From Allacma fusca (taxonomy: Eukaryota; Arthropoda; Collembola; Symphypleona; Sminthuridae): 64,000 nt of DNA. The stretch is taken from NCBI GenBank assembly GCA_947179485.1, contig OX359246.1, forward strand, positions 31,992,001 to 32,056,000, read 5' to 3'. Each line of letters begins with the position of its first letter. Position 1 is the stretch's first letter. This document shows, one piece after another, positions 13,562 to 59,706 of this stretch. The notes under the pieces are model-generated. The model was not told the DNA's origin. It ran no database searches and saw nothing but the letters and a program-made list of their open reading frames with translations. The position numbers were made by a program, and so were the translations under genes.

Positions 13562-13763
13562 GTTACCTACCACGTTTGAAATAATTCCATACCAAAGAAG
13601 GTCAATTGAAACCCTGGGGAAACATTTAGCGTTTCAAAAGGCAAATCCTTTGTGGATGTCATGGATTTGGCAGCGGAGAAAATCGGGATGATCGTTGAAA
13701 ACAATGATATTTTCATATTATGGCTAACCGACATGAGCCATTTATGTAAGAAATGTGTGTAAG
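13562..13763 (+). pseudogene. DUF4430 pseudogene (copy C) lacking exon 3
   Basis: The stretch matches exon 2 of copies A and B (NPGETFSVSKGKSFVDVMDLAAE) and joins directly to exon-4-type sequence (GMIVENNDIFILWLTDMSH). The whole of exon 3, both flanking introns and the signal-peptide exon are missing. The exon-2 part has two in-frame TGA codons, one at the conserved Trp of the HVWN motif. The join falls inside the exons (after GCAGCGGAGAAA) and not at splice sites, so a deletion is more likely than retroposition. It lies 1.1 kb after copy B. Confidence 0.8.
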
Positions 13764-14462
13764 ATTAGAAGCGTCTAGTATTTAGCGAAAGTTTTAATAA
13801 ATGCATTTTAAATCCAACAAGAAATGAAAAAGTATGTGTGAATTTATTTGGTATTTCTATTCCCCTGAAATGTCAATTGTCAAAGCCCGGTCTGTTATTG
13901 CTTCATATATCACATCCAAACAGACCAAGGATTTTGCAAAAATTCAACAGTGAGAAGGAGCTGATAAATCTAAGTTACATATGTACATACTACAAAACAC
14001 TGACAAAGACTTTTGTTCCATATATTTTTTGGAGATCAAATCTTGGTCCATTAAAAGCTATGAGCAAAGTGTAATACAGCATATTTCCCCTGCCTTAAGG
14101 GTGATTACCACACAATACCTCTGACATGACAATAATGGACTTTTATCTCAAATCACACCGGGAGATAATCACTGAGAAGATAAAGGCATGCATTACCTTA
14201 GGCCCATCAATGTCAAAGCAAAATACAAAAGTCAAAGCTCTGGCCAAGCCTTATCAAAATATAGGAAATCTGTAGTAAATCTGACGCTTACAAAACCTTT
14301 GTCTTGAAATCCGTGAAATGGAAATACGTAGATAGCAAGTATCATTCCGACTCCCCATTCGTCCTTCAGTTTCCAACTTACGTAATAGAGTTTGCTCCTG
14401 AAAATTCTACCCATATACAAAGACAACGGCCCAGTGGCCTCACAAAACTCCAAATAGTAACC

Positions 14463-17265: not shown

Positions 17266-20200
17266 TCAAACACCAGAATTTTTATTGATATTGTTCCCAT
17301 TAATATCTTCAATGATTTCATCATTTTTATCTTTCTTAAGCTTCGGCGGGGGTGCATTAGTGGGTAAGATCATTTTTGCCAAGTGCATAAACGGTACTTC
17401 CACGCACATGAGCAGTAAGTAGGCTGCAAATCCTGTGACCATTAGTATTCCCAAGTATTCTATTACCTGGAATAATTCCCATTAAAAATTTAATTAACAC
17501 TTATTAATAGTAGCTATAACCAGTTTGTTAAAAATCTTTCAAGTATCAGATTATTTCAAGTCCTTATTACCACTGAATAGCTGCTAAAATGAGTGGGATG
17601 AAGCTTCATAGTGTAGTAAGTATTGAGAGTATGGAACTGCACTAAGTAAATACTAAAAGAAAGACGTCCAAGTGGAATGAAAATTTTTAAGGACAAAATC
17701 TTATTCACCCAGCCCCCATAACCATTAACACAAGCGAAGATAATCCAAGAGATGCAGAGCGCCCAAGCAAATCGATGCAGACCTCCGTAGGCTGCAGCAT
17801 GGGCTGAATTTAAGGTCTGATCCAAATTTTTCGGATCGGAGTAGTACATCACTACGTAAATAATTGCCAAGGCAAAAATAGTGCTGAAAGTCCAGCAAAC
17901 CCCAATAACGATTTTGGATATGTTCCTAAACATGGCTGGATGTTTTCCCTTCAGGTAAAATAAGTAGCCAAGGGCAAGACCTGCTGTGTACACATCCGAT
18001 CTGACCCATGGTTTTGTATACAAATCAGCCCAGTATTCCAGTTTCTTTCCCCTGAGAATTTAATAGCAACTTCCCTTTTCATTTATTTTTAAAAAAACAC
18101 GTATTTTAATGAAAGGAATATTTAAAGAAAATTTCTATTTTACGGTATTGTCAAAATGTTTGTGGGAGTCTGATGGAAATACGCTGTTACAAAGGTACGG
18201 GTCGCAAGGGAAACAGTACTCAAGGAAATTAATAGGGCAATTCCTATTTTCCTCCATCTCCATAAAGGGATGATGATGAGAGGTGATAAAAGGAAAAGCT
18301 GCATGTCCACGTCCAAGTACCACGTCAGGTAAAAACACTAAAATTTATCCAGATAATTGATATTCATTTAATTGTGAATCAATAGGACTCTTGATAAGGA
18401 GAGGGTCCTTAAAAAAACATTTTTTCTATTAAGGACATTTTCTCTTGAATAATGTCTGTGATTGTTGAATCTTACCCATCCAACTTCCCCTACATGTCCC
18501 TGAAATAAATTGCTGATGTACAGAAGGTTCCGCCACCAGTAAGTTTGACAAAGTTCTTTATGCTTGTCCATTTCGTACCAAAAAATCCCATCACCACTGT
18601 ACGGCAAAATGGTTGCGAGGATCCCCACCAAAATTGCTACAACAGGGGTTAGCCTAACATTAAATCCACAAATGTGAATACAAATGCATTGTTGACAAAA
18701 ACAAGTAAGTAATTGGATGCAATTAATTATAGTTAAGCAAATAGAAAAATCTAAAATTCATACCGAAGATACCGATGAACGGCAAAAAGGAAGTAGTTAA
18801 ATTTCCCTTTAGTCTTATCCAACATTTTGAGTAAATTATAAGCCACAAGGAAACCACTCATGAGAAAGAATGTGTCCACAGAGAGCGAGGCATTCAAAAT
18901 TGGATATGCGGACCAATCTTTGTAAATCTGTATTGGTTATACAGCAATCATAGTAATACAATATTTTGAGAGCTCGGTTTATGGATACTTACCAGAAAAA
19001 AAAAGATTTATTTCGAGAAGTTATTCTGCATTAATGAGTTCAAAATAGTGGGGAAAGAAATATTACGTGTTTTATATCCACATTGTTCCAATTCAATGTT
19101 TGCGAAGAGGCTGAAAAAGTATGACCCAGCAGAATCCAAGCTGACGTCAAAAACCGGATACCATTTAAACAAGTGAAATTGTCCGAGCCAACTTTGGTGC
19201 TGAGCCAGTTCCGTGTATTTGTATAGAAGGAAAAGGCGAGGATTATCTTCATTCCAGCTCCTTTGAAAAATCAGAAAGATTTCACAACCTTGTGAACGAA
19301 TATTTGAGCCAAGCATTTATTTTAGAGATTTTCTAACATCGCACTCAAAAAATCTAGGACATAAAATCAGGCTTCCCTAAAGGCTCTGTACCTTTCCTTA
19401 TTTCTTTTTTGCCATAAACATCTACAGCCGTGCCTACAATGCATAAGAGTGCGATTCCAGCCAGGATAAAGCTATAGGCAAAGGAAATAAAAAATCCCAT
19501 GAATTTAACTATAAAAGCATGCAGATGTAATTTAATAAAAAGTTTTTTTGTTAGTATTATTTCTTACATCATGACCCAATCTCCAGCATTGAGCGGGGGT
19601 TTTTCATCCGTGTAACAAACTTCTACGGACTGACTCACCCAGTCCTGCGACACATGTTTATGGAACGATACAAACAAATTTTGCAGGTCTTCTGTAGAGC
19701 AAGAAGCAGGGAAACATGTTCCGAGATTAGGTAGCATTGGTGGTAAAGTGGCTTCAAACAAATATTGCTAAATAAAATCAACAGTACTTAATTCTTTTCA
19801 TGTGACCAAAAACTGGGTAATTAATATAAATTTTGCTGTGCTTAAATGTAATTATACAATAATGAAACAATCTTTACGGGAAAGGTTTTTTAATACTTCG
19901 TGCACTCACTAACAAAAGCTCTAAGGAAGCAGACTCTCGTAGGCCAGGGTCCAGATTTTGTACAGAGGCCACTCCACTCTTGCCAGATCCAATAAGCTCC
20001 ACTAATTTTGGGCCGGGGAAAAGATACGTTGTACAATACTTTCCCTTGACTTCACTAACATAATTGGGCTTTCCCACTGGTCTGTACTCCCCCCGGATTT
20101 GCAAGCATTCTTTCAAATCCCCCACAGAAGCAGTGTGACCACTGAGAATTCCACTGGGAAATTTCCCCCAGGAGTCTAACACTAGATTTTCAAAATTCAA

Positions 20201-20702
20201 ATGTATTAACATTAATATACATTTTTATACAAGTGCATTTTTAAAACAATAGGATTTAATCTTGGCCTGAGATACCACCCATAAAGATTAATTTGAACTG
20301 TGGAGAAAGTATATTTGTACTTTGTAGGATCCATGTTTCAGGAATCTTGGGCAATTCCTCCACTGCCTCCACAACGTACTGTAACTGCTCAGCACAATTT
20401 TCCGTCAAATTTTCGAAAAGTTCCAAATTAGAAATTCCTGGTAAGTTCCTATACCGAAATAAGTCCTTGAATGTAGCACCACTGAATAATCCTCCTCGTG
20501 GAAATATATTTGGGATGGTACTTAAATCTTCCTTTAAATTATCAAAATTTAAATTTTGCAAATGTGGATATTGTATTGCTAACTCCTCGAAAGATCGTCC
20601 GGTTTTGTGTACAGGGAAGTTTTGTGACTGTGCGGAGGGAAGCACTAATGTTAATGTTATAACTGTAATTCCTAGCATTATTGAACACATGGGGGCATGC
20701 AT
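17266..20702 (-). CDS. NRF-6-like multipass acyltransferase, tandem copy 1
   Basis: Ten exons, 5' to 3': 20321-20702, 19910-20181, 19568-19767, 19392-19471, 19067-19260, 18764-18927, 18476-18653, 18144-18337, 17571-18051, 17266-17466. All phases agree and give about 781 residues. A signal peptide is followed by the secreted NRF domain with conserved cysteines (GKYCTTYLFPG, LGTCFPASCSTEDL, VEVCYTDEKPPL). A first membrane helix follows, then the acyltransferase-3 domain: LNGIRFLTSAWILLGHTF, SVDTFFLMSGFLVAYNLL, the WYLDVDMQLFLLSPL segment, KPWVRSDVY and LGRLSFSIYLVQ. The family is named after C. elegans nose-resistant-to-fluoxetine-6 and is proposed to move or acylate lipids at epithelial membranes. 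The tail is short, hydrophilic and lysine-rich. Copies 2 and 3 have the same gene structure. Confidence 0.9.
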
Positions 20703-21284
20703 AATGGAAAAAAGGCTTGCATTTATGGGATTTTAAATTCTAATAAAATATTTTAAAAAATTACTTCTACAAATCTCTAGATACAAAATGCACAATGATT
20801 AATTTATGTTTATATTCTCAGTCTATGAAGACGCACTATCCTCATGTGATTTAACACAAACGACAATCGCAAGCGAAGCGTGGAAAAATAAATCATTTAT
20901 CTCTTAAATCTTATTATTAAATTGAGCGAGCGACATACATAAATGCAGTGCAGAAATTGTTTGAGAGACAGCTGTCACATACTAATTGATTGCGATTTTC
21001 CCCACACTCCATAGTAGTGGCTAGATTACCCCACATCTTGAACCCTGAGGTATTAATAACTGCTATGTGCAGATAAACACAGGAGATTATCTCTCGAAAT
21101 ATAGTTGCTCAAAGCAATTGCTCATGCCCTGTCAATACAAAAGGAATTATCAATACACTAATCAGTCTTTTACGTTCTGATTTATTCTAACGTGAGCTGC
21201 TATGTATGAAGCTATAATAATTATTATAGGAAACATAAATATTGGTAGTACAATTTCTCATCGAACATTGTCATTTTGGACGGG
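20703..21284. other. intergenic region between NRF-6-like copies 1 and 2
   Basis: No gene beyond the relic at 21285-21346. The stretch contains the presumed promoter of copy 1; I could not place a clear TATA box. Confidence 0.35.
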
Positions 21285-21346
21285 ATCTTGGTTTACGTTT
21301 ACGCTAATGTCTTCACTGGCCTTAGCCTTGTCCCTCGTGAGTTTTT
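21285..21346 (-). pseudogene. relic of a further NRF-6-like gene (last-exon tail only)
   Basis: Read on the minus strand, one frame gives KLTRDKAKASEDI then VNVNQDPVQNDNV before a stop. This lines up with the C-terminal tails of copies 2 and 3 (KEKVEPLEDVNGNQAPVKNHNV) and ends at the corresponding point. No other exon of this copy is visible around it. It lies about 200 bp past the end of copy 2, as expected for the remains of a tandem gene. Confidence 0.6.
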
Positions 21347-21551
21347 AGACCGGAAATCCCAAGGAAGAATCATTTCGGTCAGCAACATAAATGTTATATT
21401 TCAAAGGTAATCAATAAAAGCTTCAAGAAGATAATAAAATTATTTTTTAATCGAAAATATATTATCACATTCATTGCTTGTACTACAGATATCTATATTT
21501 ACATTAGACCTATTTACGTAAAAACTATATACTCATAAAATCATTTTATTA

Positions 21552-24500
21552 TCAAACATTGTGATTTTTAACAGGAGCTTGGTTTCCGTTAACGTCCTCA
21601 AGGGGCTCTACCTTCTCCTTTGGTTTCTTAGGCTGGATATTAGTAGGGAGGAACATTTTAGCCAAAAGCATAAATGGAACCTCAATGGTCATGTATAGAA
21701 AGTATGACGCAAAAATATTCAGAAGGAGCAAGCCCAAGTACTCAGTCACCTGTAATTAATAAATAATTAAAACCAATGACTTCTAAAAACTATTTGCAAT
21801 GTTTGTATAAATTTACTATAGAAAACCCAAAAGAACTTATTTCCTAATAATGTATTAAAAACTTACTAGAAAATATCTGCTAAAATGAACCGGATGAAGC
21901 TTCATGGAAAAGTGTGTGTATAAAACAAGGAATTGTACTAAGTAGAAAGTGTATGTCAGTCGTCCAAGGGGGATGAAAATTTTTAAGGACAAGATCTTAT
22001 TCACAAAGCCCCCATAACCATTGACGCAGGCGAAGATAATCCAAGAAATGCTAAGTGCCCAGACAAACCGATGCAGACCTGCGTAAGCTGCCGAGTGGGC
22101 CGAGTGAAGGGTCTCTTCAATGTGTTCAGGGTAGGAGTAGTACATGACTCCGTAGACACTTCCCAGAGCAAAAATAGTACTCAAAGTCCAACCGATCAGG
22201 ATTATGATTTTTGAGATATTCCTAAAAATTGCGGGCTGCTTTGTTTTCAGGTAGAAAGCATAACCCAGAGCAATCCCAACAACGTAGACGTCAAACCGGA
22301 CCCAAGGTTTGTTGTAAAAATCAGCCCAATAACCCAAGTCTTGCTGCCTGGAAAATGACCATTATACAAAAGTTAGAGCTTTTTAAATACATCTGCTTTC
22401 ATATGGATTTGAGAAAAATACAAATCTTCATTCAATTAAGAAAACGCACGGTATGGATGGTATTGACGTTGGGGTTTGATGGAAATAAGCTTGGTTGAAT
22501 ACTCGTGCCCCCAAACCAATGACACTCAGGGCGAGGAGTAAGCTCAGACCGATCTTTTTCCATTTCCACAAAGGGATGATAAGAAGTGGGGATACAAGGA
22601 AACATTGCATGTCCACGTTCAAGTACCAAGCTGCATTATAACACTGTCATATTTCAAGGACAAAAATAACAGATCGTTTCATTTAAAAATATTTCCTTGC
22701 CAAAGGATAAAAATAATATTTTAAATGAATAGTACACTTTAACATAATTACCTCATAGTTCTTATACAAATTATTAATATACAGGAGGCTTCTCCACCAG
22801 TAAGTTCGACACTCTTCTTTTAGCCCATCTATTTCATACCAGTAGTAGCCGACGTTGAAATAAGGCCAAATGGTGGCAGTGATCCCAATCACAATTGCCA
22901 GGACAGGCGTTAGTCTGAGGGGCAAATAAATAAATAATATGGTAAAATACGCACAGGGGAAAGTCTCCTGGTAATATTACACTTTAAAATGTAGGTGTTA
23001 ATGTATGTATCTACGTTATATGTATGTACGTACATATATCTTAATTGTATTTACGCATAAAGCATGCATTTGATAGAATTTTAAATCCAAACCGTAAGTA
23101 TCGATGAATTACGAAAAGCAAGTAGTTGAACCGCCCCTTCGTTTTGTCCAGGACTTTAAGTAAATTGTAAGCCACTAAGAAACCACTCATAAGGAAAAAT
23201 GTGTCCACTGAGAGTGTCCCATTCAAAAGTGGGTAGATGGACCAGTCCTTGTATACCTGATAATTACAAAGCTCAACATCATGTAGATTTTGATCACTGT
23301 AAATAATTAGTCCTGATTAAATTCATTAAAAATAAAAATTACCATTCTTATATCCACTAGGTTCCATTTCAATGTTTGCGAGGATGAGGAGAAGCAATGG
23401 TCAAGTAAAATCCAAGCCGATGTCAAAAACCGGATTCCATTCAAACAAGTGAAATTGTCCGCTCCTACTTTGGTGTTGAGTAGACCCTTTGTATTTGTGT
23501 AGAAGGAGAAAGTCAAGATTACTTTCATTCCAGTACCTGAAAAAAATAGCGTAATTCTTGATTTTAAAAATTCTGTCAGCAGCAACTAGTAGTGTTATAG
23601 AATTTTAGTCATCCTGAAACTACTGGAAAAACTTTCATTTGAGCGTACCTTTTTTCAAATTCTCTTTCCCATAAACATCTACAACCGTGCCTATGATGCA
23701 GACGAGTGCGATTGCCCCGAGTATGATTCTATTTTAAAATAAATACATTGTGTAAGGAAATACAATTTTTGTTTATAATAAAATTGTTGTCTTTAAATGC
23801 ACTTGTGGGACCCACATCATAACCCAATCTCCGGCTTGAAGCGGCGGCTTCTCATCCGTGTAACAGACCTGAACCATTTGGCTCACAAAATCCCGTGACA
23901 CTTCTTTATGGTACGATACAAGAAATTGTTGAACATCTTCCGTTGAACACGAATCTGGGAAGCATGTTCCGAGGACGGGGAGCATGGATGGTGCAACGGG
24001 TTGAAATATATATTGCTGTGGAAATAAAAAACCAAAACGTTTAGGTGAATTCCAAATTGTAGTAATTATAATCAAAATTCTGTATCGTCAAGGATTTTAC
24101 ATATTTAGTTACTACATGCTCTTCCACTTACTAACAAAAGTTCCAACGAAACGGATTGTCTTAAGCCAGGTTCTAAATTTTGCAAAGTGGCTCTCTCGCT
24201 TTCTCCTGAACCTAGCAATGGGAAATTAGGACCAGGGAAAAGATACGTAACGCAGTACTTTCCTTTAACATCTTCAATATTCTCAGGTTCATTCTCTGAT
24301 CCGATCTTGCCCCTGATCTGCAAGCATTCTTTTAAATCCCCTTCTGACACGACGTGACCACTGAGAATCCCACTGTTCACTTTCCCCCACGCGTCCAACA
24401 CTAATTTTTTTAAATTAAATAATTTTCATGAATTTCATAAGGTTCAAATACAGACACAGTTTAATATGTAGGGAAAATATCAAGTTGAAAAAACTTACTT

Positions 24501-24871
24501 TGGAGTATCCATGTATCAATTGGCAATTTTTGAAGGGATTCCACTGTGTACTTTAAATGATTGGCACAATTTGCGGTTACATTTTCAAAAAGTGAGTCGT
24601 ACGTACTACTCTGTGAGGTTTTCCTATATCGAAGTAAGTCAGAAAATATGGTGCCTTTGGATGGTTCGGGGATAAAATTTGGATGGGGGCTAAGATCTCT
24701 CTTTAAAATATCAATGTTTAAATGTTGTAAATGTGGGTATTGTTTTGCAAACTCCTCGAAAGCCCGTCCATTTTTGTGGAGGGGGAAGTCTTGTGACAGC
24801 ACTATGGGAAGGATTATGGTTGCCCATGTTACAATTGTAAATAAGGTCTTTGATGCCAATAAGCTTAACAT
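21552..24871 (-). CDS. NRF-6-like multipass acyltransferase, tandem copy 2
   Basis: Ten exons: 24499-24871, 24132-24400, 23816-24015, 23649-23728, 23343-23536, 23093-23256, 22752-22914, 22450-22643, 21867-22347, 21552-21749. Phases match copy 1 at every junction; about 771 residues. NRF-domain cysteines are kept (GKYCVTYLFPG, LGTCFPDSCSTEDV, VQVCYTDEKPPL). The acyltransferase opening is LNGIRFLTSAWILLDHCF, with Asp in place of the Gly of copy 1 before the conserved His. The segment WYLNVDMQCFLVSPLL and the block KPWVRFDVYVVGIALGY follow. The donor after exon 3 is weak (GTGGGT), so reading through into a short alternative end is possible. The last exon is almost identical to that of copy 3, which suggests recent duplication or gene conversion. 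Confidence 0.88.
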
Positions 24872-25910
24872 TCTGGAGTAAGTTGGTAATTCTTACATTC
24901 AGAATAGAATTAATGGAGAGATGGGACGCTACAATAGCTTGAGGAATTATCATGATTTTTAAAAGTGCCTGTCTGATAATTACTGATAATTGATCTTGTA
25001 GATTGTGAACGATTTCCAATTCATAGTAAAACATTGCATTGGTATTTCCATCCGATAATCAAACATTTGTAAGAATTTTATGGTTGAGTTAATCTATAAT
25101 TAAATCATGAGGTGATATTTATTATATGTATATAATTATGATGGATGATAGTGCTGTGAAGAGTTATGTACATGATTGACAGCTGTCAGATACTCAGCAT
25201 GGTTAGTCGTAACGAACCCTTGAAGGGAGTTACACATGATGTCACGTTTAATTAACCCTGTGGTATATATTAACATATCACAGAGGAATTTTATCAGGTA
25301 CTATAAATAATAATTTATTATTGACAATTAAATTATAAATTGGCTATTTCACCATTTCCAATCTGTACTTTGGAATTATTTTCAAGTCATAATGATAATA
25401 TACAAATAGGTACTCACGTAATTACAGTTACACAGCACACAAAAATCTCAAATAAAATAGATTTCTCGAAGGTGTCCCTTTGAAAATATTTTTAAGGAAA
25501 TAAACACGCAGCCTGGGAATAAACAAAGACAGTCAAGAAGAAAAGCAATTTTCCTATCACTGAAGGCAGGCTACTGATTATTAATCAACAAAACCAGAGG
25601 TTATGGAATTAAGTTCTGAATATTTATACAAACATTCCTGTATAAGAACCACAAGAAGTAATTATTATTCGAAATTATTACAAAATTCTTTTAAAGCAAA
25701 AAAAAGCTTGAATATTGATAATTGTATTTGTTTGCTTGTTAGTCCGTCTACATTTTTAACTTGAAAATAATGGAAGTCTCAAAAAGACAAGCAGTTACAG
25801 TAAACACAATTTATAATTTAATCAAAAATATACATATTATCGCAGTCGTTGCTCGTTCTCGGCTTAATTACACTATAAATAATTATATAAAAACTGTTAT
25901 TATTTTTCCA
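24872..25910. other. intergenic region between NRF-6-like copies 2 and 3
   Basis: AT-rich, no supported gene. It presumably holds the promoter of copy 2 (near 24900-25000) and the 3' flank of copy 3. Open frames here have no domain resemblance. Confidence 0.35.
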
Positions 25911-28900
25911 TCACACATTGTGATTTTTGACAGGAGCTTGGTTCCCGTTAACGTCCTCAAGGGGCTCAACCTTTTCCTTTGGTTTCTTAGGCTGGATATT
26001 AGTAGGGAGGAACATTTTAGCCAAAAGCATAAATGGGACCTCAATGGTCATATATACAACGTAAGCCACAAATCCGGTCAGAAGGAGCAAGCCCAAGTAC
26101 TCAGTCACCTGTAATAATTATTTAGTAGTTAACTTCAACATTTGAATTTTAAATTCCCAATTTAAGATGTTTGGATTAATTTAGATACCATCGAAACCCA
26201 CAAAGAATGTTTCTAATAATGTAATAAAAACTTACTAGAAAATATCTGCTAAAATGACTCGGATGGAGCTTCATGGAATAGTGAGTGTTTAAAACAATCC
26301 CTTGTACTAAGTACAAAGTATATGTAAGTCGTCCAAGGGGTATGAAAATTTTTAAGGACAAAATCTTATTCACCCAGCCCCCATAACCATTGACACAAGC
26401 GAAGATAATCCAAGAAATGCTAAGTGCCCATACAAACCGATGCAAACCAGCGTAAGCTGCCGAATGGGCTGAATTAAATGTTTCATCTGTATTTTCAGGG
26501 AAGTAATAGTACATTACTCCGTAAACACTTCCCAGGGCGAAAATAGTACTCAGAATCCAACCGATCAGGATTATGATTTTGGAGATGTTCCGAAACATTG
26601 CGGGTTGCTTCCCTTTCAGGTAGAAAATATAACCCAGAGCAATCCCAACAATGTAGACGTCGAACCTGACCCAAGGTTTATTGTAATAGTTGGACCAATA
26701 GCCCAAGATTGGCGCCCTAGAAGATCATCATTATTTGACCATCATAAAACAGATCTGCTTTGATACAAATTTAAATCTCTACTATCTCTGTTAAGAAATT
26801 TTACGGTATGGTTGGTATGGACGCAGGAGTCTGATGGTAATAAGCTTGGACGAATACCCGTGCCCCAACACCAATGACACCCAGGATGAGGAGTAAGCCC
26901 AGACCTATCCTTTTCCATTTCCATAAAGGTAGGATTACAATAGGAGATAAAATAAAAAACTGCATGTCCACGTTCAAGTACCAAGATATATTGTAACACT
27001 GTAATAATTCAAAGACAAGAACAAAGATTATACTCCCAATCTATTTTTGTACCAAATGTTAAAAATATAATTATTCCATGCTAACATGGTTTATAGATTT
27101 TCATTTAAAAATTAAGAACTGGGAATAAGTAATAATTACCCTTAAGTTCTCAAACAAATTATTAATATACAGGAGGTTTCTCCACCAATCCGCTCTGCAC
27201 GCTTCCTTTGACATATCCTGTTCATACCAGTAAAAGCCGGTACCGAAATAGGGCCAAATTGTGGCGATGATCCCAACCAAAAGCGCCAGGACTGGAGTTA
27301 ATCTGAGGTACAAAGAATAAGTAAACAGTTACAGTACATGGAGCCCGAGCTACAAATATTTTTTATATGTTGTGCATAATTATTATTATATCTAGGTATA
27401 CCAAGTTACAGGTACACTACTTGCATTAAATAGTAATACAATAAAATCTAGAATCCATACCGTAAGTATCGATGAATTACGAAAAGCAAGTAATTAAATC
27501 GTCCTTTAGTTTTGTCCAGCATTTTGAGTAAATTATAAGTCACTAAGAAACCACTCATGAGGAAAAATGTGTCCACAGAGAGGGACCCATTCAAAAGGGG
27601 ATACATTGTCCAATCCTTGTATACCTGTCAGGTACAAAATTTAAGATCAATAATAAATTGTTTTTACCGCAAGTCCTCCAACTTGAACTTGATTGCAAAG
27701 ACTTCCTCTTGCTGTGGAAACCCGTCTCTGAGAATAATCGCGATGACTTTCATACATAATAATTTAGACAATTATTACCATTCTTGTATCCACAAGGTTC
27801 CACTTCAATGTTTGCGCAGATGAGGAGAAGCAATGGTCGAGTAAAATCCAAGCCGAGGTCAAAAACCGAATTCCATTCAAGCAAGTGAAATTGTCCGCTC
27901 CGACTTTGGTGTTGAGCCAGCTCCTTGTGTTTGTATAGAAGGAGAAAGTCATGACTGCTTTTATTCCAGTGCCTGGAAATAAAAATAATTATGTCATTTT
28001 TTATTTTACAAATTCTGCTCGTTTCTACTACTATCATAAAAAATAATCCTGAAGCTAATGGTAGAAGTTGTAATAAAAAAGCCGAGAAGAATTTAGAGTT
28101 ACAGAATCTCAAGTCTTTCAATTGTTTATATGTACCTTTTTTCAAATTGACTTTCCCGTAAACGTCCACAAACGTGCCGACGACGCAGAGGAGTATGATT
28201 GCTGCAAGTATCAAGCTATTTAAAAATTAATGGAATGTCGGTAAAAATAAAAGCGTTAGTATTACAACTGATGGCTTTAAATAAATTTTGTTTGTTTGAC
28301 CTACATCATGACCCAATCCCCAGCATCAAGAGGCGGTTTCTCATCCGTGTAACAGACCTCAACCATCTGGCTCACCCAGTCCTTTGATGCATTTTGATGA
28401 TATGAGTTAAAAAATTGCTGGACATCTTCAGTTGAGCACGAATCTGGGAAACATGTTCCCAGAGCGGGAAGCATGGATGGTAGAGCAGGTTGAAACATGT
28501 ATTGCTGTGGAAATAAAAAAACAAATTGTAGTAATTAATAATAATAAAAATTCTGTACCGTCAAGGATTTTATAATCAATACTATGTTCTACTACTTACT
28601 AACAACAGATCCAATGAAACTGATTCTCGTAAGCCAGGGTCTAAATTTTGCAAAGTGGCTCTCTCGCTTTCTCCCGAACCTAGCAATGGGAAATTAGGAC
28701 CAGGGAAAAGATACGTTACGCAGTACTTTCCCTTGACATCTTCAATGTTCTCAGGTTCATTCTCTGATCTGATCTTGCCCCTGATCTGCAAGCATTCCTC
28801 TAAATCACCTTCTGAAACTACGTGCCCACTGAGAATCCCGCTGGGGACTTTTCCCCAAGCATCTGCCACTATATTTTCAAAATAAAATCATTTACGTTAT

Positions 28901-29345
28901 AATTCCACAAGAAACAATCAAACACATGCGATATTCTATGTAGTGCAAAAATATCAAGTTGAAAAAACGTACTTTGCAGCACCCATGTCTCAATTGGCAA
29001 TTTTGTAAGCGATTCCGCCGTGTACATTAAATGATCCACACATTTTGGACTCAAATTTTCAAAAATGTCGCCGTCATTTTGTGAAGCGTCATTATATCCG
29101 TTTAAATACGAAAATAATCCGTTCTGGGTAATATCCTGTCCTGGGGAAAGATTTGGGCCGACATTCAAATCTCTCTTTAAACTTTCAATGTTAAAATATT
29201 TTAAATGTGGGTACTGTTGAGTGAACTTCTCGAAAGCCCTTCCGTTTTTGTGGAGGGGAAAGTCTTGTGAAAGGACTATGGGAAGGATTATTGCTGTCAG
29301 CGTTATAATTTTAAGGGAAGACTTTGATGAGAATAATTCAAACAT
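25911..29345 (-). CDS. NRF-6-like multipass acyltransferase, tandem copy 3
   Basis: Ten exons: 28973-29345, 28600-28868, 28305-28504, 28136-28215, 27779-27972, 27461-27624, 27140-27302, 26805-26998, 26236-26716, 25911-26108. Phases and most exon lengths equal copy 2; about 771 residues. The order is signal peptide, NRF domain (GKYCVTYLFPG, LGTCFPDSCSTEDV, VEVCYTDEKPPL), a first helix (AAIILLCVVGTFVDVYG), then the acyltransferase-3 domain with LNGIRFLTSAWILLDHCF and KPWVRFDVYIVGIALGY. The first exon differs most from copy 2 (a different loop around residues 60-95). The remaining exons differ by scattered substitutions, so the gene looks functional. Likely role: lipid or sterol handling at epithelial membranes, by family analogy. 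Confidence 0.88.
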
Positions 29346-29671
29346 TGTGTCAGAAATGTTTTTCTCGTTTCAAAAATTTAAATACGCTGGATAAAGGCTA
29401 CCCACGGTAGCTTTAGAAGGAATGTGAATTTTTAATTAGTTTCTATTCAGGGAATAATATTACTATAGATCATGAACTATAAAAATTGCATTTGTTGGAA
29501 TGTGCATTACATGATCGAGTGTCTGTACTCAAGTAATCATTATAATTGTGATTTAATATAAGATTAGCGTCACAGATATGATTGATGATAGTTGACATTG
29601 AACAGAAAGTGTCACAGGCTCTGTAGGCAATCAAACATGTGTAAGCTTGATTGTGAGTTTCCAGCATAGGG

Positions 29672-33530: not shown

Positions 33531-36166
33531 ATGTCAAAAAGACTAAAATTAGGTTCCACGGTTCCAAGACAAACCTTCTGGAGCAGAAAAAATCGAGTAA
33601 CTCTAATTTTATTTGCTACTCATATTTAATTCCACATACATATTAAGGGGAAATGTATTTTATTAATGCGATTTACTTTATTTAGGCAATTCGCAGTAAT
33701 AGGAAATTTGACCACATTTTGTATAACCAACCATTGGAGGAAGATGGTGCAATATTAGTTGGAGGTTGGTTCTATTTAATATCAGCTCAGTATTCGGGCA
33801 ATGGTCATGAATTGAACATGTGTACTTTTTTAACAATGTTTAAGATCCCGAGAATTGGGAAGTGTCAAGTATTAGTTCTGCGGATGAATCTGAACCCGAC
33901 ACGGACGTTCTGACTACTACAGTTTCATCCGAAATTGAAGAATTTCTCCATTCGGTAGATGAAAACAAACCTTATTCTAACAACGAATACGTGAATCGGG
34001 GAAACGGCAAGGTTTGTCAATTTACAGTTGTTTTTTATTACAAAACAGAAATATGTGATTATAATATAAATATATTTTAATGGCTTTTTCTTAGATTTAC
34101 GATGAATGTGATCTCACGTTACAAGAAAGCGTACGAATTGTGCTTCAAAAATGTTCTCAACATAATTGGACAATTGCAACCCTGGAATCCGTTCTGCAGC
34201 TAATTAAACTACATTTACCAAATCATGTCAAGTATCCAACTACTAAAACACAAGCAGAAAACGTCATTCCAACCCAAAATAGCTGGGTTAAAAAACATTG
34301 TTATTGCACCGATTGCAACCACATTCTACAAGAAATGAAGTGTGAAAAATGTAACCGAATTTATGAGCTCACTGATGACGTCAGAAATAACAATATGTTT
34401 GTGACATTGGACTTGCGTAAACAGTTAGAGCTAATTCTTACATCCCGAAATGTTTGTACCGCATTGGAAAAAGGAATGCAAGAAAGAACCTCTCTTCAAA
34501 ATATTGGTAGAAAACTGAAACAACTACCCATACAAAAGTGTGATATTTCGTTGTGCATCAATACTGACGGTATTCCCTTATTCCGATCGTCGGGTTATTC
34601 ATTGTGGCCTGTTTTGTTTGTAATTAATGAACTACCATTTTACATGAAAAAACAGTGTGCATTACTGGGAGCTCTGTGGGTTGGGAAGACAAAAATTGAC
34701 CCGTTTCTGGTATTCCCTAAATTAATTGAACATTTAAATTCTTTCCAGACAATTCCTTTAGAATGGAAAAATAATTCTGGTCAGCCAATACAATCATTTG
34801 TGTATGTAGTTAACTGTTGTGTTGATTCAGTTGCAAGATGTATGCTTCAAGGTCATACACAGTATAATGGCCGATTTGGTTGTACATTCTGTGAGCAAGA
34901 AGGAACCGTTGTTAAAAAGGGAGATGGACACACGCGCATTTACAGTCACCAGGAACGAACACGCCGGAGTCATGCAGCATATATTTCAAAAGTACGAAAC
35001 TTGGACTTTTCGATGGGAATTAAGACTGCGTCGCCGTTTCTTCTATTAAAAATTTTTGATATAGTTGATGGTTTTAGGGTTGACTACATGCACTGTACTT
35101 TGCTAGGGATTGTCCGAACGTTTTTGTTTACTTGGTTAAAAAGCCCAGGTAAAGCTTTTTATCTCGGGTCTTCAAAAGAATTAATTGATCAACGCTACAG
35201 TTTGACAAAGGTTCCAGACGAAATATCTCGTCTACCCCGTTCTATTAATGAAATTAAATATTGGAAGGCTTCTGAGTACAAAACCTGGCTATTTATGTTA
35301 CCCGTGGTCCTCGATGGCATATTAGAGCCGAGATATTTAAACCATTTTGTTATGCTTAGCAATATAATGCATAAGTTACTAGAACCCTGGGATAACTCTT
35401 AAGATCTCAATGAGTTAGAAGAAAATGTTTCTGAATTTGTGTCTAAAGTAGTCTTTATATGGTCTACAGTACTGCGTTTTTAATACACATTTATTTTCAC
35501 ACATAATAGAATGTATGATTAACTGGGGTCCCATTTTTGACAACTCGTGCTTTATATTCAAAGATTTAAATGGTTTGTTGAAACACTGGGTTAAAAGCCC
35601 CAACGGAGTTTGCATTCAAATTGCTCGTAAATTTTTGCTAAAAATCGAATTGCAAAAATCAGGGAAGCAACAAAATAATCAATCTCTAAACTATTGTCGA
35701 TCAAAATTTAAGAAATTTCAAGTGCTGGGCCCATTTAATAACTACACACGATTGTAAATATCAGCGTCAAATTATCGAAGAGAATTCAAACATATTTACT
35801 GTAACGAAAAGTGAGCGTGCTGTAATAAACCATCATATATTTAAATCCTTCGATACTACAAAACGTACTAACAATATAGTTTATTTGTCCCGTCGGTTAC
35901 TGGGCAAAATTGTATGTTTTTTCAAAGCCGTATGTTCTTGTCAATTATACACAACATGTGATTGTTGCTGTGAATTTGTACTTGTCGAAACATTTAAGAC
36001 CAAACGCTTTAGTTGCAGTAATTATATTTATAAAGTGCGACAAAACGCACAGAAAAGTATTGAATTAAAAAAATTGAGCGAAATTCGAGCTATAAAGTAC
36101 TTCAAAATTTTGCTTGATGACTGTGAATATTATGTACAACTTCCAAATGTTATTGAACATGAATAA
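33531..36166 (+). pseudogene. tnp2-type transposase (Transposase_21-like), interrupted
   Basis: Exons: 33531-33596 (start MSKRLKLGSTVPRQTFWSRK), 33686-33764, 33845-34011 (acidic), 34095 to about 35447, and about 35510-36166. The large exon has a zinc-ribbon-like CYCTDCNH...CEKCNR, then INTDGIPLFRSSGYSLWPVL, the Cys pair in NGRFGCTFCEQEG, and VDYMHCTLLGIVR. These are the conserved blocks of tnp2/CACTA transposases. The last exon has the DUF4218-like WGPIFDNSCFIFKDLNG. Breaks: an in-frame TAA at about 35400, a probable one-base frameshift near 35745 (the frame continues to a stop at 36166), and an uncertain junction at 35447-35510. It therefore cannot make a full transposase. Confidence 0.75.
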
Positions 36167-41200: not shown

Positions 41201-42093
41201 CCTTCATCATCAAGATCAAAGCTTATTAAGGGTTTTCTAGTCAAGATGACCAATGCATTCAAAGATCGAATACAACACCATGCCACCACTCGGGTCAATT
41301 CAAAAGTCCGGGACATTACCGACGTATATTTCGACAAAATGGAACAGACAGATCCAAAGTCAGATTCATTTTTTGCCGGGGGTAAAATATTTATAACAAT
41401 TTGAGAACGAAATGCAATTCAAAATTAAATTTTTTAACTGTGGACGTCAACTGTTAAACAGGCGATTCGTTGCAGTTTGTTTACGCCGGATTGTTTTTAG
41501 CTGCCTCTGACTCATCAAGTACAAGTTTAGAATGGCTTATACTCTTCGTTGTCAGCAAGTCGGGAGTTCAGAGATGTCTTCAAAGAGAAATTGATGATGT
41601 TATTGGAATTCGGAAGCCTTGTCTGGCCGACAGAGAAAGAATGCCTTACACTTCGGCCATAATCCAGGAAATGTTTCGGTTGTCGTCTATTGATATTGCT
41701 CAGTTTCACCAAGCTAAAATAGATGCCAAACTATTAGGGTATGATATTCCAAAAGGATCTATACTACTTCCAAACGTATACGGAATAAGTCATGATCCCG
41801 ATATTTGGGTGGAACCGTACGATTTTAAGCCAGAACGATTCATGGATGCGGATGGGAAATTTATAAAAAGTGACAAATTTATAGTATTTGGATTTGGTCG
41901 GCGGTCTTGCCCAGGAGAACTATTGGCAAGGAATCAGATATTTCTCTTTGCTACTAGCATGTTTCAGCGTTTTAACGTGGAAATTCATGGGAAGTGTCCT
42001 CAATTCCATGGTGTGTTTGGTATCGTACACCATCCTAGTAATTTTGATGTCGTTTTCAAAAAACGAAATCATAGCACTGGAGTAATAGTATAA
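38263..42093 (+). CDS. microsomal cytochrome P450, CYP2-clan type
   Basis: Six exons with continuous phases: 38263-38344, 38441-38561, 38633-38736, 38833-39097, 41131-41381, 41462-42093; 484 residues, the usual length. An N-terminal anchor is followed by the hinge PPGPWSFPIVGNL. The I-helix reads AASDSSSTS, where most family members have AG-x-E/D-T-T. ExxR is EMFR (about residue 344), the PERF motif is at about 398 and the heme-binding loop FGFGRRSCPGE has Cys at about 424. The enzyme would be an ER-bound monooxygenase using a P450 reductase. The substrate cannot be read from sequence; CYP2-clan insect members include hormone-pathway enzymes and detoxifiers. Intron 4 is 2.0 kb and repeat-bearing, unlike the other introns (about 70-100 bp). 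Confidence 0.9.
39737..40220. repeat. dispersed repeat, two copies inside the P450 intron 4
   Basis: The motif CTCTC(C/T)CTTTCCTAAACGCGCTTTTTAGGTTCGCGGATACAAATT, in shortened form, occurs near 39740-39795 and, diverged, near 40165-40215. A third copy is near 50276-50350 (CTCTCTGCTAAGCGCACTTTATAGATCCGC). No ends or coding capacity were found. It may explain why this intron is long. Confidence 0.4.
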
Positions 42094-43430: not shown

Positions 43431-43625
43431 TGTCTTCAGATCAGCATTATAATAATCGTTGTCTAGGCCTTGAATGGTTGTGGTTACATGCAAAGGATTT
43501 CATTAAATTGTAATTTCTAGCATACCGCCGTGGTATTGACGTTTGCTCAATTCAGCCTCGCTTATTACTATCTTCTCCTTGATATTGACATTTGGCAAGG
43601 TCCCCAACACCGTAATATGTTTGAT
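43431..43625 (-). pseudogene. decayed tandem copy of the QYYG peptide precursor
   Basis: On the minus strand one frame reads QTYYGVGDLAKCQYQGED followed by SNKR, then, after a frame slip, EAELSKRQYHGG up to a GT splice-donor position. The following sequence matches intron 2 of the intact gene (GAATGGTTGTGGT(C/T)AC and TTTCATTAAATT), and CTTCAGATCAGCAT at about 43435 matches the start of its exon 3. The KR cleavage pair has become KC in one unit. Gene order and orientation equal the intact gene 2 kb away, so this is the remnant of a tandem duplicate. Confidence 0.75.
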
Positions 43626-45398
43626 GCAGTAGATACATATGTATATGTATGCCTCTGAAATGAAAATAAGCTGGTATAGCAGATGTCAAAACAATAGGTT
43701 CAATTAGATTTCAGTTGATGTTCACATAGGCAGGTTTCAATGTAAAGACGTAAGAGTGAAAAGTACATATAAAACACCGCTTTCCGTTTTTTGTTTGCGT
43801 TGCTTGTATCTATTCGTCACTCGTGTCCACTGTACTGTACTGAAAGTGTTCTCAATATTATTAAATGTTTTCCTATTTTTGGGGATTGTGGTTTTAGCAA
43901 TATTTTGTTGAGATCCAACGGATTCACTTGGAATTGGCTTCGGTTTAATTTCCGGTTGGTCCTTCCGGGTGATAAGTATTTGCAATGGTTCTTCTACAGG
44001 AATTTTGTTCACGCTCAAGAGTTACATCATGGTGGCTGACATTAACCATAAGTTGTTGCTATAGTCTTGTAATTTTTCGTGGGGATGGTATATTTGTTTC
44101 ATCTGTATTATTTAATTTATTAATTCCAGTTTGGTCTCCTAGATACTCTTAGAGTAATGAACCCCATGCTTTTAGTTTGCCTATCTGTTACAGATATCAA
44201 TGACGACTCAATACTTCCGATGTAATGAACGAACATTATAACGGTGTACTCAGTAAGAAACTTCAGCGCTATATGTTTGTATTTACAAATTAACTATTCT
44301 CAAAATGTCAAGCTTTATTACACATTTTGAAAGCAATTCTCGCCACTCGTTATAATGGAGGACTGTATTATTTTGAATTGTAATGTTTCTCTATCTCAAT
44401 AGATTGTTTTGCGTTCGCAGACCCATTTAAATGATGCTTAATGTTTTTGCAAATAAATATAGGGGATTTAATTCATTGAATGTTCAGGAACTTACATGAC
44501 TTCAGGAGAGAGAGAGAAGATTCAAAAATGTCTCTCAACTCTCACTGTCGTCATTTTATGACAGCCCTAGAAATAGACGATAGTATAGGCGGGCTGGAAA
44601 ATGCTGAAAGTATGAAGGCGAGGTTGACAAAAAAGGGTAGGCGTTGTATAAATACTAGCCTAAGGGATAGGAAGGCAAATATAACACCAATTATAAAGGC
44701 AAGGAAACGAAGGGTGTCAAGCGTTGCCGATCATGTCAGAATATGATGTTGATGGGTACCTATCGGTGATTTTACAAGGCAATGAGTAACAGCAAATTCA
44801 TGCATCCATGCATACGCTGACTAGACGTACGATACGACCGCATTAAACGTTTTATTGGAATCTGGTTTTGGGGTTGTTGGTAAATACAGAATGATGGATA
44901 ATATAAGTATTTTGTACTATCTGTACAGTTGATAAATAAATACAACTTACGTAGCACAAATCTACTGCACTTGAAAACTACGCAAGGTGTTACCTAGGCG
45001 GTCGGAGAAAAATAGGGAAGGAAAAGTTAGGCGATGTATCTACCTAGTTTTGGGCTGTAGGGAATAGGCATCCTGTAGCCCAGAAGGTAGGGCTGTTTTT
45101 CAAATATTTTATAGGCAAGGCGAAAGGATAGGCGATCCACTTGCCCATCACTGTTTTATGATATTTACATCATACACATGTATACGCAAGCATGATTGTG
45201 CATATGTAATTATGTTTCGTACACGTAGTGACTTTGCTTTAAGCTTAAAACGCACGTGTTCTTATTACTCCTATCAGAATAATTTATCATTATTTAATAA
45301 GTTTTTATTTGTGACGGATTTTGCCAATTTATTATACTTTTATTTTGCACTGTTAACAGAATTTACTATGTGCTTTTGCTCCACTTTTTATAATATTA
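43626..45398. other. intergenic region with an AAGGCAAGG-type repeat
   Basis: No supported gene. 44571-45155 holds degenerate words like GGGTAGGCG, ATAGGAAGGCAA and TATAAAGGCAAGG, ending with TTGCCCATCACTG at about 45155. This is the best-preserved of three such stretches and may be an old non-autonomous hAT element. Confidence 0.4.
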
Positions 45399-46389
45399 TC
45401 AGCCGATTCGTGATTGTGTATATTTTGGTGGTGGGAGGTACACTACTGTTGGAGCGTATTGACGTTTCTTAATTTCGTCTTCAGCTTCATCATCTATACA
45501 ATTATAACGTGACATGTATTAGATTTATATTTAGTTCATACACAACTAAAGCAGTAGTTGCCATATTCATGACTTACCTTCTTCTGCGGCCTCTTCTTCT
45601 TCATCTTCTTGACGTTTGTTCAGATCAGCATCTATAAAGAATGCATATTTCATCTTAATTTCCGTTTTGAATGGTTGTGGTCACACATTCAGGAATTTCA
45701 TTAAATTCAACTTTATAACTTACCGCCATAGTATTGACGTTTGCTCACTTCAGCATCACCATAGTACTGGCGTTTAGCGAGATCGGCATCACCATAGTAT
45801 TGACGCTTGGTAAGGTCAGCATCTCCGTAGTATTGACGCTTGGTAAGGTCAGCATCTCCGTAGTATTGACGCTTGGTAAGGTCAGCATCACCGTAATACT
45901 GGCGCTTGGTGAGGTCAGCATCTCCGTAGTATTGACGCTTGGTGAGGTCAGCATCTCCGTAGTATTGACGCTTGGAAAGATCAGCATCTCCGTAGTATTG
46001 ACGCTTGGTAAGTTCAGCATCTCCGTAATACTGGCGCTTGGTGAGATCAGCATCTCCATAATATTGACGTTTGCTCAGATCAGCATCTCCGTAGTATTGA
46101 CGCTTGGTGAGGTCAGCATCTCCATAATACTGTCGTTTGGCGAGGTCCTCATCTCCGTAATACTGGCGTTTGGCGAGGTCCTGATCGCCATAATATTGAC
46201 GCTTGCTCAGATCAGCATCTTCTGTAAAAATGTATATATGTTGTTATAACTTCAGATCAATTCTAAAGAAAATCCTGGAACAAAATTACATAAAATTTTA
46301 TGAAATTTTACGTAGGTTGAAATTTACTTACTGTAGTACTGAGCAGCCGCAATGGTAGCGACACCCAAGAGGATAATAAACTTATTCAT
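45399..46389 (-). CDS. secreted prepropeptide with 15 QYYGD-type repeats separated by KR sites
   Basis: Four exons: about 46333-46389 (start and signal peptide, IILLGVATIAAAQYY), 45724-46221, 45578-45631, 45399-45493; about 234 residues. Exon 2 is a 33-bp tandem array of 15 units QYYGD(A/Q/E)(D/E)(L/V)(T/S/A)KR. Exon 3 is an acidic spacer (NKRQEDEEEEAAEE). Exon 4 gives EDEIKKR and then a different last peptide, QYAPTVVYLPPPKYTQSRIG, before the stop. Lys-Arg sites are the classic prohormone-convertase cleavage signal, and N-terminal Gln would become pyroglutamate. Only the last peptide ends in Gly and could be amidated. I know no named neuropeptide of this kind; a neuropeptide, pheromone or exocrine secretion are all possible. 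As I read it, the ATG and the hydrophobic frame are offset by one base in the A-run near 46379; this must be checked. Confidence 0.75.
45724..46221 (-). repeat. 33-bp coding tandem array, 15 units
   Basis: The units repeat every 33 bp from about 46193 down to about 45731 without slippage. The middle units are nearly identical at the nucleotide level (QYYGDADLTKR, six or more copies). The outermost units differ most: DQDLA and DEDLA at the start, DAEVS at the end. This pattern is typical of repeats homogenised by unequal exchange. Confidence 0.85.
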
Positions 46390-50965: not shown

Positions 50966-51656
50966 CTAGTAATAAAAGCCCTGTGCTTCACAGGGTCAAT
51001 CACTTGAAGAGGTGGTATTGCGACTGAAGAATTTAAAAGCCAAACGGCTTACGAACCAAGCCCTGACGTAGAGCACGGGTCGGATTTTTGTGGGAAGACG
51101 GGAAGATTCTTCCCAGGGAAAAAATATTTCTGGCAGGGAAAAAATATTTCTGGCAGGGAAAAAATATTTCCGGCAGGAAATCTCAAAGGAAAGGGATTCT
51201 GTTTTACGAACAGGTATTTTAAAATTCGTTGATCTTTTTTTTGGCGATTTGTTGACATGTTTCAGGGAAATTTGTTACGCAAACAGGGATTTTTAGATTG
51301 ATGGACCTTATTTGACAGGGATTTGACGACTTGCAGGGAAATTATTTGTTCCAACAGGGATTTTGAAAATCGTTGACCTTTTTTCAGCAGGGATTTTTGA
51401 AATTGTTGAGGACCTCCCAGCAGGGACATTTGATTCCTCAGGTAAATTCAGAAATAATCTTCCAGGGAGATTTAAAAAAATCCGACCCCTGTCGTAGAGA
51501 CTTGTTGTATGCCTAAATCATGGGTGCTTATATTAAGAGTAGCGCTTTACAGGTAGTGTTTGGCATGTCACCTTTTGGGCGTTGTGTGAGGCCATTGAAA
51601 TATGAACGCGCGGAACTTTAACTAAACGGACAGAAAGTTCCCTTTAATAATAAGGA
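50966..51656 (-). mobile_element. non-autonomous Helitron, tandem copy 1 (with nested insertion)
   Basis: On the minus strand the element starts TCCTTATTATTAAAGG at 51656. It ends with the hairpin CCCTGTG-AAG-CACAGGG (50979-50995) and a few bases later CTAG at 50966-50969. A TC start, 3' hairpin and CTAG end, with no inverted repeats, are Helitron marks. It abuts copy 2 with no spacer (CTAG directly followed by TCC). A 412-bp TIR element is inserted at 51077-51488. Without it and its duplicated target the unit is about 265 bp, so it depended on another element for rolling-circle transposition. Confidence 0.8.
51077..51488. mobile_element. TIR element nested in the Helitron, CAGGGA-rich, long target duplication
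   Basis: The ends are GGGTCGGATTTTT at 51077 and AAAAATCCGACCC ending at 51488. The interior repeats CAGGGAAAAAATATTTCTGG nearly perfectly three times (51113-51173) and has about eight more scattered CAGGGA words. The intact Helitron copy 2 shows the empty site. Around the insert CTGACGTAGAGCAC (51063-51076) and CTGTCGTAGAGAC (51489-51501) look like a target duplication of about 13-14 bp with small differences. The superfamily is not clear. Confidence 0.7.
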
Positions 51657-57780: not shown

Positions 57781-59610
57781 TTATAAATCGCATTCAATTT
57801 CCAACATCATATTTTCGTCAACCGCATCAGGTAAGTCAGTCATGTTGTATTCATCGTGCCGGACTGGAGTCAACCCGCATTCCGTTTCATCTAGTAAATC
57901 GATAACTTCGGCTGGAAGTGTCTTTCTCTTTCTAACTATGGCTCTTCGTCTCAGCGAAATGCTAGATATCAGAGGATCCGAAGTACCCAAAGATCTGTGG
58001 AACATATCAGTCAAAGTGTCAAGTCTACTTGTCTTGCGAGCTCTGTATGTGCGGTCAAACTTGTAGCATTTATTTCGCGATTCTGCACAATCCTCAGCAA
58101 GCATTCCCACCGGTAATGGACTCGCTGAAATTATTTCGGCTCCGTGAATTAGTATCTTGTGGATGCTTGATGGCAGTAAATACCAACTTTACTCGTCCAT
58201 AAGTTTGTTAAAGAGAGAAATACAATGTACTTTGAAACGGCCCGGGTTTATTGGGAATTGGCTAGACAAGGTAATTAAAACTGTCCTGAAGTCACGAACG
58301 ATATCTTCTCTCACATTTAGGATTCGAGCGAATGTCTTAAAGTTCTGAAATGCTCTACGGGCTGTGTTACCATCATTTGATGTTCCTCCTGTTGGATTAG
58401 GATAATCGACTCTTAATTTCAGTTGTTCCCAGATTTCTTTCTGAATTCGAGCCTTTTCTGCTTTGTATGGAATTTTTAAATCACCTCGTGCTTGCCATTA
58501 TTTAAATTTCATACGATATCCAATTTTCAGGAAATATTCGAGACCTCGAATATAAGCATGTAGACATGAAAGTCCATAGACAAGGCTGTTTGGCTTTGGC
58601 AAAAACAAATTGTTTGTTAAATTGATGGGCACATTAAACTGTTTTGGATTACACCAGCAAACCGGGCAAGCTTGATTAGAAGTTCCCTGAATAAATGACA
58701 ATACCTTGCCATCAATTATAGTAAAATTTAGGTTAAATTTAATCCGAACAGTAATTTCTGTGCTCAGGTGGACTTCCAAAATTTCTAGCTTTGAAATTTG
58801 ATCCATAATGTCGTTATGCTCAGCCAAGACCAAATCTTTGCTCTCTTTAGCAAAGATAATTTTTATTGGCCTGCAAAATCTGTATGATTGTGGAGCCGAA
58901 TTATTCCAATAAACTCTTTCACCATCCTGAATTCTCAATGGGTTCAGAGTAACAGCAAATAGGGATGAATCTTCGTTAGCAATAATGTCATTAGTGTATC
59001 CTTGTTTATAGTTCGAAAATCCGCTGCTGCCATCCATTCCCCAAGATAATATAAAAGTAAGAACACGTTCGGACAGATTTTCCCTTTCTTGTAAGAATAC
59101 GCTTTTCTGGTGTTTCACAATTCTTCGAGTAGTATGCTCTAGGAGTGCAGATAGTTTCACACTTGCAAACGTATCCCCAAATGACATTGAACAAGAAACA
59201 GGAAGGCAGTCAGTCTTTGCCTCACGCACTCTGTCGTAACAAGGTAAAACATTTTTACCACAAGAGTTCACAGCACGCTGTACTGCAATGAAGGAAGATT
59301 TCCCCAAATTAGCGTCAAAAAGCATTGCTAGTGCATGTTGTGGACTAATTTGCTTAACGTTGTCTATTTTCATTTTAATCTTGCTCATTAGTTCTGTTGA
59401 ATGTGCTTTGTTGGCCGAAACAAATTCTAAAATATCCGCCAAGTCTTTATCTCCACTTTGCTTCATTACTCGAGCAACTGCCAATAGAAGCTTCTCTCGC
59501 GGTTCATTCATCAATGTCTCGCTAAAAGCATAAATTTCTTTTTTCTTTGCCGCATCACCTTTCTCGTCCCAAGACTTTGGTGGTTGCCCTCTTTTTCGCT
59601 TCAGGGACAT
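57781..59610 (-). pseudogene. Transib (RAG1-related) transposase with two internal stops
   Basis: A single reading frame of about 610 codons from the ATG at 59610 to a stop at 57781, without introns. The N-terminal third is basic and helical. The DDE-type core follows: WGMDGSSGFSNYKQ with the first Asp (about residue 193), LFAVTLNPLRI, SYRFCRPIKIIFAKE, TIIDGKVL (about 300, probable second Asp), the CPVC zinc pair, and AEDCAESRNKCYK with the probable catalytic Glu near the end. These blocks define Transib, the transposon family from which the RAG1 recombinase core derives. Stops interrupt the frame at 58498-58500 (TAA after RMKFK) and at 58189-58191 (TAA after LMDE). All else is open, so inactivation is recent and the copy may be rescued only in trans. 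Confidence 0.85.
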
Positions 59611-59706
59611 AGTTGATCTGTTTAATTTGTAAGATACAGTTTAAAACATTATGCAAAGTATTTCGGATCTGAGGCAAAGTTCGATATACATGCACGGGGA
59701 AATCAC

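Follow-up and report, generated by a model that had tools for sequence, protein, structure and literature searches.

A candidate gene family for secreted, Lys-Arg-cleaved multi-copy peptide precursors in the springtail Allacma fusca

We analyzed a window of 64,000 nucleotides from the genome of Allacma fusca (contig OX359246.1, positions 31,992,001 to 32,056,000). Its minus strand carries a gene, termed G1, whose four exons encode a protein of 234 residues (Table 1). In order, the protein comprises a leader, MNKFIILLGVATIAAA, 16 tandem 11-residue units of the form QYY(G/K)DxxxxKR, an acidic spacer, QEDEEEEAAEEDDEAEDEIKKR, and a 20-residue tail. A first-pass annotation of this DNA had described a complete four-exon precursor with 15 such units at positions 45399-46389. 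These coordinates run exactly from the stop to the start codon, and the four exons are retained, but the definite last peptide that made the precursor "complete" is not. The count of 15 is replaced by 16, units 1 (QYYKDADLSKR) and 16 (QYYGDADLNKR) being split by introns 1 and 2, respectively; KR is present in both. Each of the 16 units has the Lys-Arg site and N-terminal Gln ascribed to it, and Gln follows each of the protein's 17 KR pairs, including those at the spacer and tail boundaries.

Table 1. Positions of G1, its signals, its paralogues and its relics. Positions without a contig name are those of the window.
Feature	Position	Strand	Description
TATA-box-like TATAAA	46441..46446	-	52-57 bases upstream of start codon; consensus match only
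Exon 1	46332..46389	-	58 nt; start codon, 16-residue hydrophobic leader MNKFIILLGVATIAAA, QYY and one base of unit 1
Intron 1	46222..46331	-	110 nt; phase 1; GT-AG; tandem acceptor CAG-AAG
Exon 2 (repeat exon)	45724..46221	-	498 nt; remainder of unit 1, complete units 2-15 (46198-45737), start of unit 16
Intron 2	45632..45723	-	92 nt; phase 1; GT-AG
Exon 3	45578..45631	-	54 nt; end of unit 16 (DADLNKR), first half of acidic spacer
Intron 3	45494..45577	-	84 nt; phase 1; GT-AG
Exon 4	45399..45493	-	95 nt; DDEAEDEI-KKR, tail QYAPTVVYLPPPKYTQSRIG (45461-45402), stop
First two of three AATAAA polyadenylation-type signals	45328..45344	-	55 and 66 bases past stop; consensus only
Relic R1	43435-43618 (about)	-	Decayed end of exon 2, intron 2 and, weakly, start of exon 3
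Gene G2	C8:32064331-32063460	-	Same chromosome as G1, ~25 kb away
Gene G3	C10:30961509-30962293	+	Other chromosome (chromosome 3)
Relic R2	C8 near 58,663,700		Decayed; two internal TGA

By inspection, the leader consists of MNK followed by 13 hydrophobic or small residues, with Ala at positions -3 and -1 before QYY. The donor of exon 1 is A/GTAAGT, and the tandem acceptor of intron 1 implies two possible lengths for unit 1: use of the first AG gives QYYKDADLSKR, and use of the second, with three bases less, could give QYYNADLSKR. Exons 2 and 3 have phase 1 at either end, so that each might be skipped in frame. A sequence, GTATAAAA, stands at the position corresponding to the TATA-box-like element in both intact paralogues of G1, and the AATAAA signals start at 45344, 45333 and 45309.

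The array goes beyond a chance pattern, scoring 550-669 in Tandem Repeats Finder, with 121 for the next best of the eight rows. The reading frame of the repeat exon lacks any Met, which bears out the earlier remark that annotation based on open reading frames would miss it. Antisense to this exon, plus-strand positions 45719-46249 form an open frame of 176 residues, hydrophobic and with a period of 11 residues. The pN/pS ratio in that antisense frame is 1.8, and we therefore judge the antisense open reading frame to be a by-product. A single-sequence AlphaFold2 model of the repeat exon gave no confident fold (mean pLDDT 47.8).

Several other elements occupy the window. Positions 17269-29369 of the minus strand appear to hold three tandem acyltransferase genes of the nose-resistant-to-fluoxetine type. 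The third of these, with approximate exon joins, shares 95% identity with a protein annotated in A. fusca; compared stretch by stretch, the first six stretches are 95.6-98.5% identical and three later stretches 71-93%. The five gaps between exons in this neighboring gene measure 104, 95, 89, 157 and 142 nt, so the intron sizes of G1 are ordinary for the locus. The C-terminal part of a cytochrome P450 lies on the plus strand at 41458-42093, just downstream of relic R1, and its best scores among solved structures are to CYP2D6 and CYP2R1. Repeated similar exons, recognized by eye, extend over plus-strand positions 8444-16645; one of them (12090-12269) matches DUF4430 weakly, below the Pfam cut-off, and an LDL-receptor class A domain comes after them at 16241-16645. 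A Tnp2-type transposase (Transposase_21, 29.4 bits versus 28.6) is encoded on the plus strand at 34095-35402. The minus-strand open reading frame at 57781-58188 resembles RAG1 very weakly (E 0.099, 11.2 bits versus 25) and possibly encodes a transposon protein; a long frame beside it, at 58498-59640, had no match in profile scans. A 20-base tandem repeat of 3.2 copies with 97% matches is found at 51114-51177.

The A. fusca assembly qeAllFusc8.1 comprises 392.8 Mb, with chromosomes 2 and 3 of 75.61 Mb and 66.08 Mb, and its genome report describes a planned annotation with RNA-Seq data (PMC10427803). A search of this genome with five units (E ≤ 0.001; 26 candidates, all scored) produced 12 matching stretches at four places, namely G1, G2, G3 and R2. 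Beside G1, the genome thus contains two further intact genes, one with 11 and one with 19 units. Two other copies have decayed; of these, R1 was found within the window and is absent from the results of the genome search, at whose threshold more diverged members of the family could also have been missed. G2 has four exons, 11 units and an acidic spacer shorter than that of G1. G3 has two exons and 19 units without spacer or tail, and a K-stop ends its last unit. The promoter and exon 1 are conserved among the three genes, and a genome search with this region (E ≤ 1) matched exactly G1, G2 and G3. Relic R1 aligns with G1 over 91 columns at 81% identity, with a local score of 97 as against at most 35 in 50 shuffles. 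It has stops in the three frames and no AG at the start of exon 3. The two decayed copies provide a picture of what lost constraint looks like in this genome.

Residues Q1, Y2, Y3, D5 and K10 show no variation across the 46 units of G1, G2 and G3, and 45 of these units retain R11. Gly occupies position 4 in 43 of the 46, with Lys in its place in unit 1 of each gene. Variation is concentrated at position 6 (A/E/Q/S), position 7 (D/E), position 8 (L/V) and position 9 (T/A/S/N). Synonymous codons are mixed at Q1, Y2, Y3, K10 and R11, and D5 is GAT in 44 of 45 cases. Loss of the KR pairs in homologues had been named beforehand as evidence against a processed precursor; the counts for K10 and R11 show that both intact paralogues keep them.

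The pN/pS ratios in the coding frame are 0.115 for G1 (16 units), 0.137 for G2 (11 units) and 0.124 for G3 (18 of 19 units, that without R left out), figures that are not independent tests because units may be homogenized within arrays. In the two shifted sense frames, the values are 2.18-3.23 for the three genes (14, 9 and 16 units used, respectively). Low values in the coding frame and high values in the shifted frames indicate selection on the units, Lys-Arg pairs included. A six-frame comparison of G1 exon 2 gave 0.084 for the coding frame (13 of the 14 complete units) and 1.8-3.6 for noncoding frames, save one antisense frame at 0.156. This exceptional frame shares its wobble positions with the true frame and contains stops. 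When 14 G1 units are compared, variation affects 10 of the 11 third-position codon columns and 5 of the 22 first- and second-position columns (Fisher p = 0.00045, which is only indicative because the units are not independent).

The selective pattern of the units is also seen at the array's edge, in the leader and unit 1. Between G1 and G3, they differ by six synonymous changes and one nonsynonymous change, and one of the 16 leader residues differs; in intron 1, 27 of 98 aligned bases differ. As judged from paralogues of one genome, then, repeated units bounded by dibasic sites are under selection.

The reading frame might also be that of an ordinary minisatellite, open by chance, at a decaying or nonexpressed locus. 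The open antisense strand over the array and the decay of R1 and R2 are what such a locus could be expected to show. However, the coding frame stands near 0.12 and both shifted frames exceed 2 in each of the three genes, and exon 1 and the promoter are conserved with G2 and G3. We consider a minisatellite origin of the reading frame very improbable.

The ends of the proteins do not share the conservation of the units. In place of the G1 tail, G2 has GSYVRPAPPVVYL followed by polyproline and ATYYGKK; neither the polyproline stretch nor ATYYGKK-stop is present in G1. The run in exon 4 of G2 amounts to about 20 prolines in a row, none of which has a counterpart in G1. The last residues of the G1 tail and its stop align with the 3' UTR of G2. 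The "different last peptide" of the first-pass annotation is therefore not a conserved product: its end matches untranslated sequence of G2, which has another tail, and G3 has none. Relic R2 and G2 have the ending TACTACGG in common, which suggests that the ending of the G2 type came first, the G1 tail being a derived read-on. If so, the final Gly of the G1 tail is weak evidence for amidation in G1. The G2 tail ends in GKK-stop and R2 reads TYYG-stop in one frame, both being amidation-type ends, and these are better evidence that an ancestor may have made an amidated tail. The KR that precedes the G2 tail is followed by Gly instead of Gln; the rule that Gln follows KR is thus limited in G2 to the units and the spacer. 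A genome search with the tail exon listed only G1 (two candidates scored), but this test is insensitive because it missed exon 4 of G2 despite the common DDEAEDEI. The conclusion that the tail is not conserved comes from comparison of the three genes and not from that search.

Searches for relatives covered about 5.8 billion proteins and depended on shared words, protein length and annotation. The full G1 protein found no match at E ≤ 1 (7,997 candidates that share most words scored), and a shortened G1 protein found none at E ≤ 10 (261 candidates). The searched database contains A. fusca proteins, none of which was matched by either query. Pattern matches in viral and prokaryote contigs (36 and 21, respectively) yielded no confirmed case, and the shortened query had no match at E ≤ 1 among solved structures. 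The sole NCBIfam match was far below its cut-off, and Pfam and NCBIfam scans of the G1 protein named neither orcokinin nor EFLamide nor another known arthropod family. The string QYYGD and four strings of the YYGDADL type do not occur in 5.39 million open papers, the search covering the papers themselves. Within these databases and papers, the term "undescribed" used previously is supported, and the peptide family appears to be new. Because homologues were found within the A. fusca genome and not outside it, conservation rests on the paralogues.

One profile did score above its threshold. The Pfam model for thyrotropin-releasing hormone precursors (TRH; PF05438) gave 41 bits versus a curated cut-off of 27.8, and 42 bits after removal of the spacer and tail. 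If taken at face value, this match would make the G1 protein a TRH family member. The match was lost in every control in which the unit was permuted or KR replaced (three in one run, ten in another). These include 11 scrambles with Q1 and KR retained, of which none lists TRH (one scramble run at E ≤ 1, ten at E ≤ 0.01), so residue order matters. However, 7 of 10 scrambles score above cut-off with Pfam families that are unrelated, at up to 70 bits, and such matches make the additive scores of tandem repeats unreliable. One further scramble from a separate run gained no other Pfam family. The motif that defines TRH is QHPG followed by two basic residues, from which pGlu-His-Pro-amide is released. 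Yet all 46 units have Asp at position 5 and none has a basic pair after position 4; in the 43 units with Gly 4, the next residue is always Asp. Given the scramble controls and the missing QHPG-KR, we reject membership in the TRH family, the least probable of the readings considered here, and regard the match as a likeness of layout and not of kinship. Arthropod orthologues of TRH are EFLamides (PMC7584566), and the EFLa precursors of Collembola have 4.5 copies on average (PMC4770511).

The strongest rival is a secreted structural repeat protein, such as a glue, spermatophore or gland-fiber component, in which a Tyr-rich, charge-alternating 11-residue unit stays uncleaved and Lys-Arg is part of the material. 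The units are head to tail without spacers and have two Tyr each, and array length differs between genes (11, 16 and 19 units). A short leader directly before the first unit is a layout also of cuticular and gland proteins. Regular strands appear in the low-confidence AlphaFold2 model and could also come from a structural repeat. High spermatophore production is mentioned for A. fusca in PMC9630974. Against this stands the basic pair itself: Lys and Arg are never exchanged in the 46 units, although Lys to Arg is a single base change. Gln also succeeds each KR of G1 up to the spacer and tail, with Gly at the tail boundary of G2, and G2 finishes with the amidation-type GKK. The absence of swaps and the Gln after every G1 KR favor cleavage as the probable fate of the protein, and we rate a structural role as unlikely.

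We propose, with a probability of roughly 0.7, that G1 belongs to a small A. fusca gene family encoding secreted, Lys-Arg-cleaved multi-copy peptide precursors. A secreted-type precursor with Lys-Arg-flanked units that start with Gln, as originally suggested, is supported by the gene model and by the comparison of 46 units. Points that count against this reading are the missing spacer and tail of G3 with its K-stop end, the Gly after the KR that precedes the G2 tail, the short leader placed directly before unit 1, and the want of amidation in the nonapeptides. The leader would take the precursor into the secretory pathway, where a proprotein convertase would cut after each Lys-Arg, a carboxypeptidase would remove these two residues, and the exposed N-terminal Gln would cyclize to pyroglutamate (pGlu). 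No Gly precedes KR in the units, so the resulting nonapeptides would presumably not be amidated. G1 would yield 15 acid nonapeptides of the form pGlu-YYGD(A/E/Q)(D/E)(L/V)(T/S/A/N) and one pGlu-YYKDADLS, with the acidic spacer and the variable tail as by-products. The best reading of the family product is a set of putative nonamidated pGlu-YYGD(A/E)DL(T/A/S) peptides.

Such peptides likely have a signaling role, putatively as a neuropeptide, an endocrine peptide, or an externally released chemical signal or reproductive secretion. We do not go so far as to call the product a neuropeptide. A more speculative proposal, to which we give appreciably less than even odds, is a private peptide signaling system of springtails, or of part of them, that is unrelated to known arthropod families. 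It would involve at least three genes with 43 acidic, nonamidated pGlu-YYGD copies and three pGlu-YYKD copies, possibly sulfated on the paired Tyr residues, and perhaps serve as a chemical or reproductive signal.

Known systems resemble G1 in part. Fungal Kex2-processed repeat proteins and alpha-factor precursors have a leader and tandem units separated by KR, and they work as proposed for G1; they belong to another kingdom, and no sequence relation to G1 was found. The short introns might suggest a fungal origin for G1, a reading that we reject because the neighboring gene is closest to a springtail acyltransferase. Drosophila NPLP4 gives a peptide that starts with pGlu-YYYG, and its short leader directly precedes Gln-Tyr-Tyr, as in G1. 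However, NPLP4 has a single copy and no Lys-Arg array, and we claim likeness in starting letters and layout without kinship. The TRH precursor is like G1 in its repeated KR-Q-x-x-G and acidic stretches, whereas G1 is without QHPG-KR and would release no tripeptide amide.

The precursors of allatostatin A, EFLamide and kinins consist of a leader and several near-identical copies with basic sites between them. This layout of multi-copy arthropod neuropeptide precursors is common to G1, with no sequence match in the searches run. C-terminal amidation is common in arthropod neuropeptides; unlike their precursors, the G1 units have no amidation Gly before KR, and amidation is accordingly absent from the predicted nonapeptides. 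Genes of this type can escape surveys whose starting point is the known families, and likewise gene finders that require the repeat exon to have a start codon. A survey of collembolan neuropeptides searched with known insect neuropeptides and sorted the precursors into 39 genes (PMC4770511); it was thus not designed to find the G1 peptide. For collembolan precursors in that 1KITE survey, 13 rows of Table 1, orcokinin not included, give averages of 1-5.3 copies (PMC4770511), as compared with 11-19 in the A. fusca genes. If our reading is true, G1 represents a new peptide family in a basal lineage of hexapods in which the multi-copy precursors known so far, on the figures drawn from that survey, have few copies (PMC4770511).
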